In this document: one piece after another, positions 1,012 through 31,341 of the stretch
Position numbering within the stretch: the stretch's first letter is position 1
How the letters are laid out: the number at the start of each line of letters is the position of its first letter
Origin: Bacteroidales bacterium
GTDB taxonomy: Bacteria > Bacteroidota > Bacteroidia > Bacteroidales > P3
Length of the DNA: 59,007 nucleotides
Assembly (NCBI GenBank): GCA_017449975.1
Contig: JAFSYK010000057.1
Location: 1 to 59,007, forward strand
Reading direction: 5' to 3'
The notes under the pieces: generated by a model
Seen by the model: the letters and a program-made list of their open reading frames with translations, nothing else
Told to the model about the DNA's origin: nothing
The model's database searches: none
Program-made: the position numbers and the translations under genes

Positions 1012-1323
1012 TTACTGATTATTCTTGTTAATCAAATTCACCACAACCTTAACCATCACGTCCTTCTCCTCGGGGCGGCTCTCGGCAATCATCAGCGTGA
1101 GGGCAACGAGAGTGCCATCGGCGATGCCGACCATATTAGCCTCGGCGATGCCGCACTGGATAAAGCGCTCGGGGAACTCCTTGGCGAAGCCGTCCATCTT
1201 CACGCTGCCTTTCACGTCGGCGCTCAAGGCCACGACATTCTCATTGCGCTTGCCAGCTTCCACAAGGCCTTCGCCCATGCCGGCGCACAACTCTTTCATT
1301 GATTGTTTTTCGTAGTGGGTCAT
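1012..1323 (-). pseudogene. Truncated second copy of the transketolase C-subunit gene
   Basis: 103 codons. The first 68 or so (through GIAEANMVGIA) nearly match the transketolase C-subunit gene starting at 318, including the bases just before the ATG. Homology then stops abruptly, and the remaining 35 residues (starting DGTLVALTLMIAESRPEEK) are unrelated to transketolase. Most differences between the copies are at third codon positions, with only a few amino acid changes (for example R13C and S28E), suggesting the copy was selected as protein before truncation or came from a related strain. It lacks most of the subunit and cannot be active. It remains an open frame, so a short chimeric protein could still be made. 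Confidence 0.75.
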
Positions 1324-1343
1324 TGTTATTTTGATTTTTCTAT

Positions 1344-1625
1344 CTAGATAGGTTTAATGGGCTTAATGGGTTTAATGGGCGGCTGTCGCATGATGGCTAG
1401 TTCCATCTCCTTCGATGTGATGCCGTCAATGTTGCCCTCCGCGAGGTTCTGCTTGCCGCTCCGCGCCGCCTGCACCATCTGGTCTATCGTACGATCACCC
1501 TTCTCCAGAAACCTATTGGCAAAATAATAGGTCACGTCATAGACGCACTCCGCCTTGCGGAACGCCTTTAACGTCCTATAGTTGTGGTCCTGCCTTAGAA
1601 AGTCCTGGTTGTCGGGGGTAGCCAT
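1344..1625 (-). CDS. Four-helix-bundle protein, C-terminally truncated
   Basis: 93 residues. The body (YRTLKAFRKAECVYDVTYYF, RTIDQMVQAARSGKQNLAEG) matches the S23/four-helix-bundle family found in rRNA intervening sequences and elsewhere in Bacteroidetes. Family members usually run beyond 110 residues; this one breaks off after SKEMEL and ends in a PIKPIKPIKPI tail encoded by a 9-bp repeat array (1351-1380). It is probably a broken or remodelled gene. It lies between the PrsW-vWA gene and the truncated transketolase copy, in a stretch that looks rearranged. The molecular function of the family is not established. Confidence 0.6.
   Translation of the reverse strand: MATPDNQDFLRQDHNYRTLKAFRKAECVYDVTYYFANRFLEKGDRTIDQMVQAARSGKQNLAEGNIDGITSKEMELAIMRQPPIKPIKPIKPI
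1351..1380. repeat. 9-bp tandem array (TTTAATGGG type)
   Basis: Three consecutive 9-bp units (GGTTTAATG, GGCTTAATG, GGTTTAATG) and the start of a fourth. They form the 3' end of the four-helix-bundle reading frame. Related in period and sequence to the arrays at 33561 and 36332. Confidence 0.75.
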
Positions 1626-26801: not shown

Positions 26802-26987
26802 ATGCCACATCCAAAACACAGATTCTCACAGACCCGTACGGCGAAGAGAAGAACTCACGACAGTCTGGAGTCGGCGCAGCTGACCACTTGCAGCAACTGC
26901 GGCGCCCAGGTGATGTATCACCATGTATGCCCCGAGTGCGGCTACTACAGAGGCAAACTCGCCATCGAGAAAAACGCTGAGGCGTAA
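26802..26987 (+). CDS. rpmF: 50S ribosomal protein L32
   Basis: 61 residues. PHPKHRFSQTRTAKRRTH is the conserved N-terminus, and the two CxxC pairs in TCSNCGAQ and VCPECGYY form a zinc ribbon. The last codons and stop (GAG GCG TAA) lie inside the first copy of an 80-bp direct repeat whose second copy is 2 kb downstream. In many genomes plsX and fabH follow rpmF; here an AT-rich island follows instead. Confidence 0.97.
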   Translation: MPHPKHRFSQTRTAKRRTHDSLESAQLTTCSNCGAQVMYHHVCPECGYYRGKLAIEKNAEA

Positions 26988-27057
26988 ACGCCCAAGCGTA
27001 GCAAATTGAAAGAGGACATCCCCAACGGGATGTCCTCTTTCGTTGTAATTAGACACA
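26978..27057 (+). repeat. 80-bp direct repeat, copy 1 (rpmF 3' end plus terminator)
   Basis: Covers the last three rpmF codons including the stop, TAAACGCCCAAGC, the terminator hairpin and GTTGTAATTAGACACA. About 90 percent identical to 29003-29082. The two copies bound the AT-rich island. Confidence 0.85.
27008..27041 (+). terminator. rpmF terminator hairpin
   Basis: A perfect 15-bp stem (arm GAAAGAGGACATCCC) with loop CAAC; the stem ends in CTTTC. No long T tract beyond it. Its twin at 29033-29066 has the loop in the opposite sense. Confidence 0.75.
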
Positions 27058-27111
27058 GCCCAAACAACACCCAATCAGGCTGGAACACTTGATAAATCCA
27101 AAACAGTTTCT

Positions 27112-27119
27112 TACCTTTG
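27112..27119 (+). promoter_or_regulatory. -7 promoter box (TACCTTTG) in the island
   Basis: TACCTTTG fits TAnnTTTG. It lies 133 bp before the likely start of the first island gene, leaving a long leader that contains the first palindrome. Confidence 0.55.
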
Positions 27120-27124
27120 CAGGT

Positions 27125-27148
27125 GAAAACCGGACTTGCAGATACCAA
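27125..27148 (+). repeat. 24-bp direct repeat of the island, copy 1
   Basis: Starts GAAAACCGGACTTGCAGAT and ends ACCAA. An exact copy is at 28149-28172, immediately after the second palindrome. Each copy precedes one of the two island genes. Confidence 0.8.
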
Positions 27149-27198
27149 ATAAAGGAACTCGATGGCGACAGCGTGGAGAGCCGCTGGATCTACGACAC

Positions 27199-27231
27199 CC
27201 GTTGTTTCGGATTGCAAATCCGAAACAACGG
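27199..27231. repeat. REP-like palindrome, copy 1
   Basis: Perfect 14-bp arms (CCGTTGTTTCGGAT) with loop TGCAA. The loop is the reverse complement of that in copies 2 and 3. It lies in the leader of the first island gene. Confidence 0.85.
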
Positions 27232-27251
27232 AAATCCTCAAATCTTTAGAT

Positions 27252-28106
27252 ATGATAATAAAACATTTTTTGGACGCAGACAACTACCGTAAATTATTGA
27301 TGTTAGCATTGATTATGGTAATGTCCAATGAAGTGTATTCTCAACTGTTAGCAGTGGATTCTGTAGAATACATCAGAATGGATCGTTTTGGTTACAATAA
27401 GATTGTCTGTTATTCTGACTCTTCCTTTTTATCGTATTCGTACTCAAATCATACAGGGAGGGTTTCACGATACTCTTTCGGTAAGTATGAATACGATAAG
27501 CATTCTAGGAAAATGACATTTAGGACTATACCTAATTCACAGTGGAATATTTCCTTTGATTCATTATCATTTTCTTCAGGTTTTCTTAGTATATATGTAT
27601 ATTGGCCAATATTAGACTCTTCTAGATATTTGTTTGTTGTTAATACCGATTCAGTAATCGTAGCATATCAGGATTCGCAGAATATGGTATTATCTGATAC
27701 GGTTAGAATTACCAATGATTTTCCATATTTAGAAAAGACAATGATACGGAAACTGGATTTCGTTCAATTATACAACCAACCCAATCACATTAGTGTTATT
27801 GAATGTGAGAGCGGGTTGCAGCTTATTGAATATTATGGATTTGCGGATAATTTACATGTAAAACTAATGAGGACACCTATTGTTCCACCAGAATTATTTG
27901 AGAATTATGAAAAGAATCAGTTTTTTGTGGATGATTTGGGAAACCTTACAGACGAGAAAGGGAATATCCTTTTGTACTATTATGCTGAAATAGATAGAAG
28001 TATAATGCCTGTCAGGAAAATACTTGATGATATTGTTGATCCAACAATAGGGTCTTATCCCATAATTAGTATTGGGACTTCTAATAATAAAGACATCGGC
28101 AATTAG
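27252..28106 (+). CDS. Exported protein of unknown function, AT-rich island gene 1
   Basis: 284 residues from the ATG at 27252; an ATG at 27300 is also possible and would place the hydrophobic signal (MLALIMVMSNEVYSQ) right at the N-terminus. The frame is open upstream to 27162, but that part runs through the palindrome and is unlikely to be protein. The mature part is rich in Tyr, Ser and Asp with alternating beta-strand patterns (SFLSYSYSNHTGRVSRYSFG). No family recognised. Base and codon use are AT-rich, unlike every neighbour. A surface or periplasmic protein is inferred. Confidence 0.65.
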   Translation: MIIKHFLDADNYRKLLMLALIMVMSNEVYSQLLAVDSVEYIRMDRFGYNKIVCYSDSSFLSYSYSNHTGRVSRYSFGKYEYDKHSRKMTFRTIPNSQWNISFDSLSFSSGFLSIYVYWPILDSSRYLFVVNTDSVIVAYQDSQNMVLSDTVRITNDFPYLEKTMIRKLDFVQLYNQPNHISVIECESGLQLIEYYGFADNLHVKLMRTPIVPPELFENYEKNQFFVDDLGNLTDEKGNILLYYYAEIDRSIMPVRKILDDIVDPTIGSYPIISIGTSNNKDIGN

Positions 28107-28113
28107 GTAAAGG

Positions 28114-28152
28114 TTTCCGTTGTTTCGGATTTGCAATCCGAAACAACGGAAA
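28114..28152. repeat. REP-like palindrome, copy 2
   Basis: Perfect 17-bp arms (TTTCCGTTGTTTCGGAT) with loop TTGCA, eight bp after the first island gene's stop. The second copy of the 24-bp repeat (28149-28172) begins at its right end. Confidence 0.85.
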
Positions 28153-28172
28153 ACCGGACTTGCAGATACCAA
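28149..28172 (+). repeat. 24-bp direct repeat of the island, copy 2
   Basis: Identical to 27125-27148 (GAAAACCGGACTTGCAGAT followed by ACCAA). It sits between the second palindrome and the start of the second island gene. Confidence 0.8.
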
Positions 28173-28188
28173 TCTCCATAGGCAGCAC

Positions 28189-28848
28189 ATGAAAAGATTA
28201 TTCATATTTCTTGTGTTAGTGTACAGTGTGTTTTCTGGCAAATCACAAGAAGTAGATTATTTGAATAATGGAAAAAATCTGCTTCCTTTTTCGAGCAACA
28301 ACACATTCCGAGAATCCTACAAACAACATAGGAGTTTTCTTTCTGAAACAGAGTTGATTCCTCAGTGTGAAAGGGATGCCATTGTCATAAACGGTAGCAC
28401 CTCCGCACTCATTTCTTTTCATGCGCTGGACACATGTTCGTGTTATAGTCAAGAATTAATTTTTGCAAACGACTCATTGTACCGTTCGAGAGGAGGACTT
28501 CGACAAATGATAATCCGAATTAAGGTTGACTCCGTTCTTCTTGTGAATATTGGTGACGATTTAGTGGATGCCGATTGGTTTTTAAATATAGGACATCTGC
28601 TTATTGATGACACAACACACTTAAAAAAAGACACTTCATATATCGCAAGTGTAAGAATAGGCTATGACTTAGATGAAATAGTTTGGAACAGATTCTATTC
28701 ATCCAATGTGGTAATTATAAACCCTGATATATGGCACTTAAAATTTGTTTGCAGCTTTGTTCTAAGAACAGAAGATCATAAAGATGCTTACGATTTCAAT
28801 GTAGCACTTTTAAAGAGGGCAATAAAGGAATGTGACAGCCGTAAATGA
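28189..28848 (+). CDS. Exported protein of unknown function, AT-rich island gene 2
   Basis: 219 residues from the ATG at 28189, which opens a clear signal peptide (KRLFIFLVLVYSVFSGKSQ). The longer upstream frame runs through the palindrome and the 24-bp repeat. The mature protein has two close Cys (DTCSCYSQ), a predicted alpha/beta mix and no family I recognise (RMIIRIKVDSVLLVNIGDD region, IWHLKFVCSFVLR). AT-rich codon use matches gene 1, with which it shares flanking repeats. Function unknown. Confidence 0.65.
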   Translation: MKRLFIFLVLVYSVFSGKSQEVDYLNNGKNLLPFSSNNTFRESYKQHRSFLSETELIPQCERDAIVINGSTSALISFHALDTCSCYSQELIFANDSLYRSRGGLRQMIIRIKVDSVLLVNIGDDLVDADWFLNIGHLLIDDTTHLKKDTSYIASVRIGYDLDEIVWNRFYSSNVVIINPDIWHLKFVCSFVLRTEDHKDAYDFNVALLKRAIKECDSRK

Positions 28849-28966
28849 CAAGTTAGTGTCTCAATTATTATTAACCGTTAGAATTGAGTTCTATTTAATA
28901 ATACAAAATATGAAACCGTCTCGCCCAAATCAACGGAAGGTAAACATGAAACAATCATTAGGGCAA

Positions 28967-29003
28967 ATCCGTTGTTTCGGATTTGCAATCCGAAACAACG
29001 GAT
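28967..29003. repeat. REP-like palindrome, copy 3
   Basis: Perfect 16-bp arms (ATCCGTTGTTTCGGAT) with loop TTGCA. It directly abuts the second copy of the 80-bp rpmF-end repeat. The 333-bp gene-free stretch 28849-29181 otherwise holds only that repeat and the promoter of the mutase gene. Confidence 0.85.
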
Positions 29004-29082
29004 GAGGAGTAAACGCCCAAGCATAGCAAGTTGAAAGAGGACATCCCGTTGGGGATGTCCTCTTTCGTTGTAATTAGACACA
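29003..29082 (+). repeat. 80-bp direct repeat, copy 2
   Basis: Second copy of the rpmF 3'-end segment (TGAGGAGTAAACGCCC ... AATTAGACACA), at the right edge of the island. Differences from copy 1 are three single bases and the inverted hairpin loop. Confidence 0.85.
29033..29066 (+). terminator. Terminator hairpin, second copy
   Basis: Same perfect 15-bp stem as at 27008 but with loop GTTG instead of CAAC. It would end transcripts from the island genes before the mutase promoter. Confidence 0.7.

Positions 29083-29181: not shown

Positions 29182-31341
<2,160 letters not shown>

Follow-up and report, generated by a model that had tools for sequence, protein, structure and literature searches.

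The described systems closest to the locus reported here are the recombinase-associated acquired interbacterial defence (rAID) islands. These hold at least two co-directional short genes (about 100-300 codons) with a guanine plus cytosine (GC) content below 41%, and orphan immunity genes are described as still protecting at about 30% identity to the cognate gene (PMC12247911). In Neisseria, type VI secretion clusters are flanked by Correia repeat elements (PMC10210955). Here we describe a small island in a stretch of 59,007 nucleotides from a Bacteroidales bacterium (GenBank assembly GCA_017449975.1, contig JAFSYK010000057.1), hereafter called the window. The island lies behind rpmF, the gene for ribosomal protein L32, whose 3' end is present on both sides of it, and contains two open reading frames, ORF1 and ORF2, framed by copies of a repetitive extragenic palindrome (REP). 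We assign a probability of roughly 0.6 to the reading that the islet was acquired and carries orphan immunity genes whose source was an Rhs toxin/immunity (polymorphic toxin) array, and we read it as a recombinase-free relative of the Bacteroidales acquired-interbacterial-defence islands with hairpin-marked joints. Its features and direct neighbours are as follows (contigs of the same genome, loci and other genomes are designated by C, L and G numbers, respectively):

26802..26987, plus strand: rpmF (ribosomal protein L32; Pfam PF01783, E 4.7e-21), 3' end duplicated
26978..27057, plus strand: 80-bp repeat, copy 1, comprising the final rpmF codons, the stop codon and a hairpin terminator
27008..27041, plus strand: terminator-like hairpin, loop CAAC (-27.9 kcal/mol for the folded 48-nt stretch)
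27112..27119, plus strand: TACCTTTG, promoter-like by pattern only, upstream of ORF1; it matches TAnnTTTG, which we take to be the Bacteroidetes -7 consensus
27125..27148, plus strand: 24-bp direct repeat, first copy
27154..27198, plus strand: scrap of an rhs (YD-repeat) gene, 93% identical to contig C68 of the same genome; palindrome 1 starts on the next base
27199..27231, no strand assigned: REP palindrome 1, loop GCA
27252..28106, plus strand: ORF1, 284 amino acids, 33% GC, hydrophobic N-terminus (by eye), no relatives found
28117..28149, no strand assigned: REP palindrome 2, loop TGC
28149..28172, plus strand: 24-bp direct repeat, second copy, sharing one base with palindrome 2
28189..28848, plus strand: ORF2, 219 amino acids, 36% GC, hydrophobic N-terminus (by eye), Rhs-immunity-like family
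28969..29001, no strand assigned: REP palindrome 3, loop TGC
29003..29082, plus strand: 80-bp repeat, copy 2, its hairpin loop flipped to GTTG with respect to copy 1
29182..31341, plus strand: mutA-like methylmalonyl-CoA mutase gene, right-hand neighbour (Pfam PF01642, E 7e-236)

The island shares several traits with rAID islands. Its two genes are co-oriented, comprise 284 and 219 codons and have GC contents of 33% and 36%; ORF2 is about 30% identical to immunity genes linked to toxins; and the genome contains no match to the corresponding toxin tip. The REP palindrome and the 24-bp repeat both recur beside the genes and may be a counterpart of the conserved intergenic motif of rAID islands. 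It differs in that no tyrosine recombinase is present among the 13 neighbouring genes scanned, that its motif is a palindrome dispersed at many places, that it contains rhs debris and a copied host-gene end, and that it consists of two genes only. For one of these two, ORF2, an immunity relation is shown at the level of sequence.

The original prediction had proposed that an 80-bp segment of the rpmF end stands on both sides of an AT-rich insert and that the insert is cargo placed at a conserved gene end. The first statement was confirmed and the second is supported. The direct repeat is identical at 73 of 80 positions (91%; E 6e-26 in a search of the genome itself), and the 1,945 bp between its copies have a GC content of 35.8%, compared with 57-58% in the flanks and 57% in the window. 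The only long frames in this DNA are ORF1 and ORF2. Genome G031, which encodes an identical RpmF, has a hairpin behind rpmF and then mutA, which starts 156 bp after the rpmF stop codon with nothing else intervening. Vertical conservation of both genes, which the original prediction had held to be incompatible with its proposal, was not seen: rpmF had matches in 138 of 149 related genomes, while ORF1 was detected in 1 of the 149 and in 1 of 393 genomes of the order, its own genome both times. Acquisition of the insert at a conserved gene end is thus supported. A survey of rpmF yielded 69 loci, 68 of them with a downstream stretch (three of under 400 bases and many of only 1.5 kb). The palindrome core was absent downstream of rpmF in all 68 stretches from other genomes, and the rpmF end was accordingly rejected as a general island hotspot. 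On separate inspection, a degenerate palindrome was seen behind rpmF in G054 and G070. The original prediction had described the layout as lacking an integrase, and Pfam detected neither an integrase nor a tyrosine recombinase among the 13 neighbouring genes, the rest of the window and genome not having been scanned for integrases; ORF1 and ORF2 are themselves without integrase matches.

The seven mismatches between the 80-bp copies are substitutions at 26983, 26998 and 27005 and all four bases of the hairpin loop (CAAC to GTTG). The 34-bp hairpins of the two copies are exact reverse complements of each other, so the loop change can be explained by one flip; if the loop did flip once, the copies are closer than 91% implies. 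Hairpin loops are found in two orientations on unchanged stems both here (CAAC/GTTG, 27023-27026 / 29048-29051) and in the REPs (GCA/TGC), an apparent case of loop inversion at perfect hairpins. Two further candidates were rejected. Rfam matched STnc320 to both hairpins (E 0.02-0.04), but its 28-29 bits fall well below the gathering score of 50, and we regard the match as a hairpin look-alike. The two stretches of DNA that follow the 80-bp copies, both ending in a promoter-like TTTGCA, resemble each other but are not counted as part of the duplication, because 15 of 500 shuffles reached the score.

Integrative elements that insert at the 3' ends of genes reconstitute the end of the host gene. 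Likewise, the end of rpmF is intact and is duplicated at the far side of the insert. The island differs from such elements in that it has no integrase, measures 1.9 kb only and is delimited by an 80-bp repeat with a flipped loop.

The case for immunity rests on ORF2. Both island proteins had been described as belonging to no known family; this holds for ORF1 but not for ORF2, which is a relative of Rhs-associated immunity proteins. Searches with ORF2 of NCBIfam, PADLOC and PHROGs gave no match, and its single Pfam match (GH7, E 0.08) was rejected. Two clear relatives were found, each in another species of the genus: one in G038 (E 2.6e-13), the other in G177, where a profile built from ORF2 and the G038 protein gave E 3.9e-27 and tblastn against a database of four loci gave 4e-15. 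The profile matched in 3 of 121 genomes, the own genome included, and over a genome collection it returned a single locus, apparently that of G038; viral contigs, plasmids and phages yielded no relatives. A match in G142 (E 3.2e-4), located in a 955-codon lectin-like frame, was considered due to chance and excluded. In both G038 and G177, the ORF2 relative lies directly behind an ORF with an Rhs core (TIGR03696, E 5e-15 and 4e-15), overlapping it by 20 bases with the start codons taken, and by eye both loci contain more Rhs-core genes and small exported genes. The tips of the two toxin ORFs are 54% identical and hence homologous, from which we conclude that the toxin and the immunity family go together. 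G033 has a third tip with a weaker match (E 1.7e-6), and the gene after it is weakly ORF2-like (E 0.002 in the four-locus database).

A search of the own genome (95% complete) for the G038/G177 toxin tip gave no match, and the only two TIGR03696 matches in this genome both reside on contig C68. In the absence of a matching tip, ORF2 looks like an orphan immunity gene. It retains residues, among them cysteines, that are invariant in its two relatives. All three aligned family members begin with a hydrophobic stretch, and judged by eye we read these N-termini as predicted export signals. When sequences of solved structures were searched, the ORF2 family, ORF1 and the toxin tip gave chance-level matches only. 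Overall, ORF2 is a member of an Rhs-immunity-like family, and it is predicted to bind and neutralise a cognate toxin tip. As a separate observation, the Rhs toxin tips at L097 (1984-2574), L115 (2009-2599, minus strand) and L161 (1357-2229, minus strand) form a family with the common motif GGTxE[HN]xxxEExxHxxQ; the two members scanned had no Pfam match at E 0.01, and going by the motif, recognised by eye, the family could be metallopeptidase-like.

For ORF1, neither Pfam, NCBIfam nor PADLOC gave a match at the limits used, PHROGs returned only matches with E 0.035 or weaker, and no Rhs-core match was obtained. Relatives were absent from plasmids, phages and viral contigs (the GTDB r220 collection lay outside this search). 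Comparison with the loci of the ORF2 relatives gave chance-level matches only (E 0.2 and weaker). Homology of ORF1 to a gene linked to an Rhs toxin was therefore not found across the 149 and 393 genomes, plasmids, phages and viral contigs searched.

As had been proposed, each gene is bracketed by the same palindromes, copies of which are present at three sites in the island. Palindrome 1 (33 bp) is the reverse complement of palindromes 2 and 3, the sole difference being the 3-base loop, and the complementary arm of palindrome 3 continues to 29003, i.e., the first base of the second 80-bp copy. A 24-bp repeat before both genes had also been claimed. Two copies do exist, but their positions differ: the one before ORF1 lies outside palindrome 1, with the 45-bp rhs scrap intervening, and the one before ORF2 lies between palindrome 2 and the gene. 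The scrap is 93% identical over 45 bp to the rhs gene on contig C68 (E 4e-11). Each of the three island palindromes has one end that coincides with a break in homology, at the rhs scrap, the 24-bp repeat and the 80-bp repeat, respectively.

Palindromes occur elsewhere in the genome and genus, and the 80-bp repeat has no third copy in the own genome. The palindrome core CGGATTNNNAATCCG was found at 19 sites in the genome, against none for the reversed control. A two-ended palindrome element of about 141 bp is 98-100% identical on contigs C12, C38, C45, C68 and C69, where it is cut by the contig end. On C68, C12 and C69 the palindrome adjoins rhs-array DNA or lies within about 120 bp of it, and no rhs DNA was seen near the element on C38 and C45. 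Both C12 and C69 break within the element, so they may be two ends of one locus. In another species, G151, an imperfect palindrome separates an immunity-like gene from the Rhs-core cassette that follows. When the whole island served as query, matches were obtained in 27 of 120 genomes of the genus, the own genome included; as two candidate places per genome were scored, such counts are lower bounds. The matches listed outside the own genome all fall on palindromes, and one extends over a second palindrome. Two matches were discarded: one on C84 to the rhs query (75% over 112 bp) looks like another repeat, and one in G018 to palindrome 2 plus the 24-bp repeat involves a second palindrome and not the 24-bp repeat. 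Elsewhere, L030 (C48:1-13000 of the same genome) contains related small genes, HEPN/MNT-like by eye, with direct repeats of 50-350 bp between them and two REPs among them, and L101 (G005:C44:50000-60740) has REP clusters (216-bp alignment, 94%) on both sides of 2.6 kb with three genes, the longest of which encodes 316 amino acids and is nuclease-transposase-like by eye.

Compared with the Rhs tip/immunity arrays on C68 and in G038, G177 and G151, the island has in common the immunity family of ORF2 (G038 and G177), the type of AT-rich exported gene, rhs sequence shared with C68 and palindromes near cassette boundaries (C68 and G151). It differs from the arrays in its position behind rpmF, remote from them, and in that neither an Rhs core nor a toxin tip was detected in it. 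Like the REP and REPIN sequences described in PMC3733652 and PMC3390384, the palindromes are short, dispersed hairpin repeats, here intergenic, and occur in a two-ended form as well; the name REPIN for the two-ended element is our own assignment. Differences from those sequences lie in the core (GGATTnnnAATCC), in the GTAG/CGTC tag, none of which was seen by eye at the three window copies, in the lack of an assigned matching transposase, and in the defence-like genes that the island REPs frame. The Neisseria clusters resemble the island in that genes serving competition between bacteria have short inverted-repeat elements at either side. They differ in that whole secretion clusters are flanked, by another element family, and the available text describes no duplicated host-gene end. 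In the mostly open-access literature searched for palindromes with immunity genes, REPIN with Bacteroides and orphan immunity with direct repeats, the arrangement is undescribed in the portions available, those of PMC10470768 included.

In the reading as an acquired immunity islet, ORF2, and by analogy ORF1, would be expressed from the promoter-like site at 27112; after export to the periplasm, the protein would neutralise a toxin tip delivered by Rhs-carrying neighbours, so that the cell would be protected without possessing the weapon. The cassettes may have arrived by recombination with breakpoints at hairpins, i.e., at the REP palindromes and the terminator. The same events would also copy the rpmF 3' end, by template switching or recombination at hairpins, and leave rpmF and its terminator whole. 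The flipped loops fit template switching at hairpins, a process to which loop inversion is not unique.

Further loci with a repeat-gene-repeat layout, which the original prediction had expected, were found in G051, G020 and on C27 of the same genome. The G051 locus is an independent parallel, in a second species and at a different gene. Beside dnaK (by eye), the final 67 bp of a DUF6261 gene (22 codons plus stop) recur downstream in copies of 59 bp (98%) and 67 bp (99%). Four small AT-rich genes (GC 0.36-0.43), co-oriented with the host gene, lie between the gene and the copies, and two of the four have export-like starts. One copy is fused directly to a truncated palindrome and the other lies 10 bp from a palindrome, resembling the window, where an arm of palindrome 3 meets the first base of the second 80-bp copy. 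A promoter-like TAnnTTTG follows the first 80-bp copy, and in G051 we recognise a similar one by eye downstream of the middle copy. Three other loci offer looser parallels. In G020 a lipoprotein gene behind groEL is enclosed by 164-bp repeats (91%) that bear palindromes, and in G032 the parallel is an exported gene. On C27 (L027, C27:900-3600), seven REPs are grouped into two clusters that enclose a toxin/antitoxin pair of the ParE type together with a small exported protein, and a 59-bp repeat (98%) stands on both sides of the ParE/antitoxin and exported genes.

From these loci we derive the proposal of a general cassette system, in which the genus would gather orphan immunity genes behind housekeeping genes by a recombinase-free route. 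The unit would consist of a promoter, a short leader, an AT-rich exported immunity gene and a REP hairpin; every insertion would recreate the host 3' end, and units could be stacked. On this view G051 would carry a stack of two units and the rpmF island a unit with two genes, joined at REPs and possibly by template switching. We offer this extension tentatively and regard it as doubtful. Direct duplications of at least 35 bp with a spacing of 0.3-2.5 kb were counted at 27 REP loci (five of them under 2 kb in length, and one place represented twice) and at 65 rpmF control loci of at least 2 kb, four shorter ones having been left out while short REP loci were kept. DNA between the duplicate copies was AT-rich in all three REP cases with a duplication (GC 0.34-0.38) and in none of the four controls (0.45-0.60). 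A script that screened 42 further REP stretches for copies of a host-gene 3' end flagged six, five of which were rejected, four for frames of at most 86 codons and one because the frame was the AT-rich cassette gene itself. It flagged none of 40 rpmF loci (three under 600 bases) and none of four other window stretches. Note that the script also missed the rpmF case of the window, because its frame picker retained an antisense frame; its misses, including those among the controls, therefore mean little.

Several results weigh against the immunity islet or its generalisation. ORF2 is only 30-31% identical to its relatives in G038 and G177. The AlphaFold2 single-sequence models of ORF1 and ORF2 (mean predicted local distance difference test scores of 34 and 37.5) are useless, and ORF1, being without relatives, can be given a role by association only. 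None of the four G051 genes reached a curated Pfam cut-off or matched an immunity family; their best matches were Ntox21 (E 0.013, below the cut-off) and PADLOC PtuA (E 1.4e-4), so calling them immunity genes is a guess. Direct duplications showed no significant excess at REP loci (3 of 27) over the rpmF controls (4 of 65; p 0.41 in a Fisher test), and removal of the five short loci and the doubled place leaves 3 of 21 (p 0.35). One of the three REP cases (G151) is a repeated Rhs core, and in two of the three the whole locus is AT-rich. A host-gene 3'-end copy was accepted in only 1 of the 42 further REP stretches, namely G051. Finally, about 225 bp of a gene end are duplicated, with no REP, at the left edge of the same window. 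This duplication (114-338 / 1119-1346, minus strand, 89%) is located at the start of a transketolase-subunit-like gene (by eye) and encloses a gene for a 219-residue lipoprotein (332-991); it concerns a 5' gene end, and palindromes are absent.

The latter duplication also bears on an alternative in which the insert is non-functional debris, a decayed rhs locus with REPs in a permissive intergenic site, the frames being relics or free-running small genes. We consider this unlikely. It is consistent with an rhs scrap of merely 45 bp, with a palindrome core scattered over 19 sites, with the lack of ORF1 relatives and with gene-end duplication occurring in the same genome without REPs. Against it, both frames remain open through 219 and 284 codons and have export-like N-termini as well as a promoter-like site, and ORF2 retains those residues, cysteines among them, that do not vary between its two relatives.

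The insert could also be a mobile cassette acting in trans, either REP-bracketed DNA that a REP-associated Y1 transposase moves, or what remains of an integrative element after loss of its integrase. The REP-gene-REP layout of the island, the genes that REP-containing direct repeats enclose in G051, G020 and C27, the near-identical two-ended element on C12, C38, C45, C68 and C69 and the presence of two Y1 transposase genes in the genome speak for it. These two genes, however, reside on contigs without the core and near palindromes of other types, so that neither can be assigned to this palindrome, and no Y1 gene flanked by the same repeat was detected in the 95% complete genome. Movement of the IS200/IS605 type is not known to produce a target duplication and would leave the 80-bp repeat unexplained. 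An integrase is lacking among the scanned neighbours, and the two units differ in layout. With palindromes as widespread as they are, the original idea of a defined module moved in trans was not borne out, and we regard movement of this kind as quite improbable. That ORF1 and ORF2 are a secreted toxin and its immunity protein rather than two orphan immunity genes is very improbable, for although the two are co-oriented neighbours, ORF2 is immunity-like and ORF1 is as devoid of relatives as a fast-evolving toxin tip would be, ORF1 has only chance-level similarity (E 0.2 and weaker) to the loci of the ORF2 relatives and no Rhs-core match, and the genes are kept apart by REP 2 and the 24-bp repeat, in contrast to G038 and G177, where tip and immunity genes overlap.

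How bacteria gain immunity without the toxin is an open question, to which one answer described for gut Bacteroidales is recombinase islands. An islet with immunity-type cargo, hairpin joints and a copied gene end, an arrangement that recurs in a second species at another gene, suggests another route. The signature, in which AT-rich exported genes are enclosed by a duplicated gene end with a REP directly adjoining it, is searchable, and the ORF2 family represents a directly testable toxin/immunity family.

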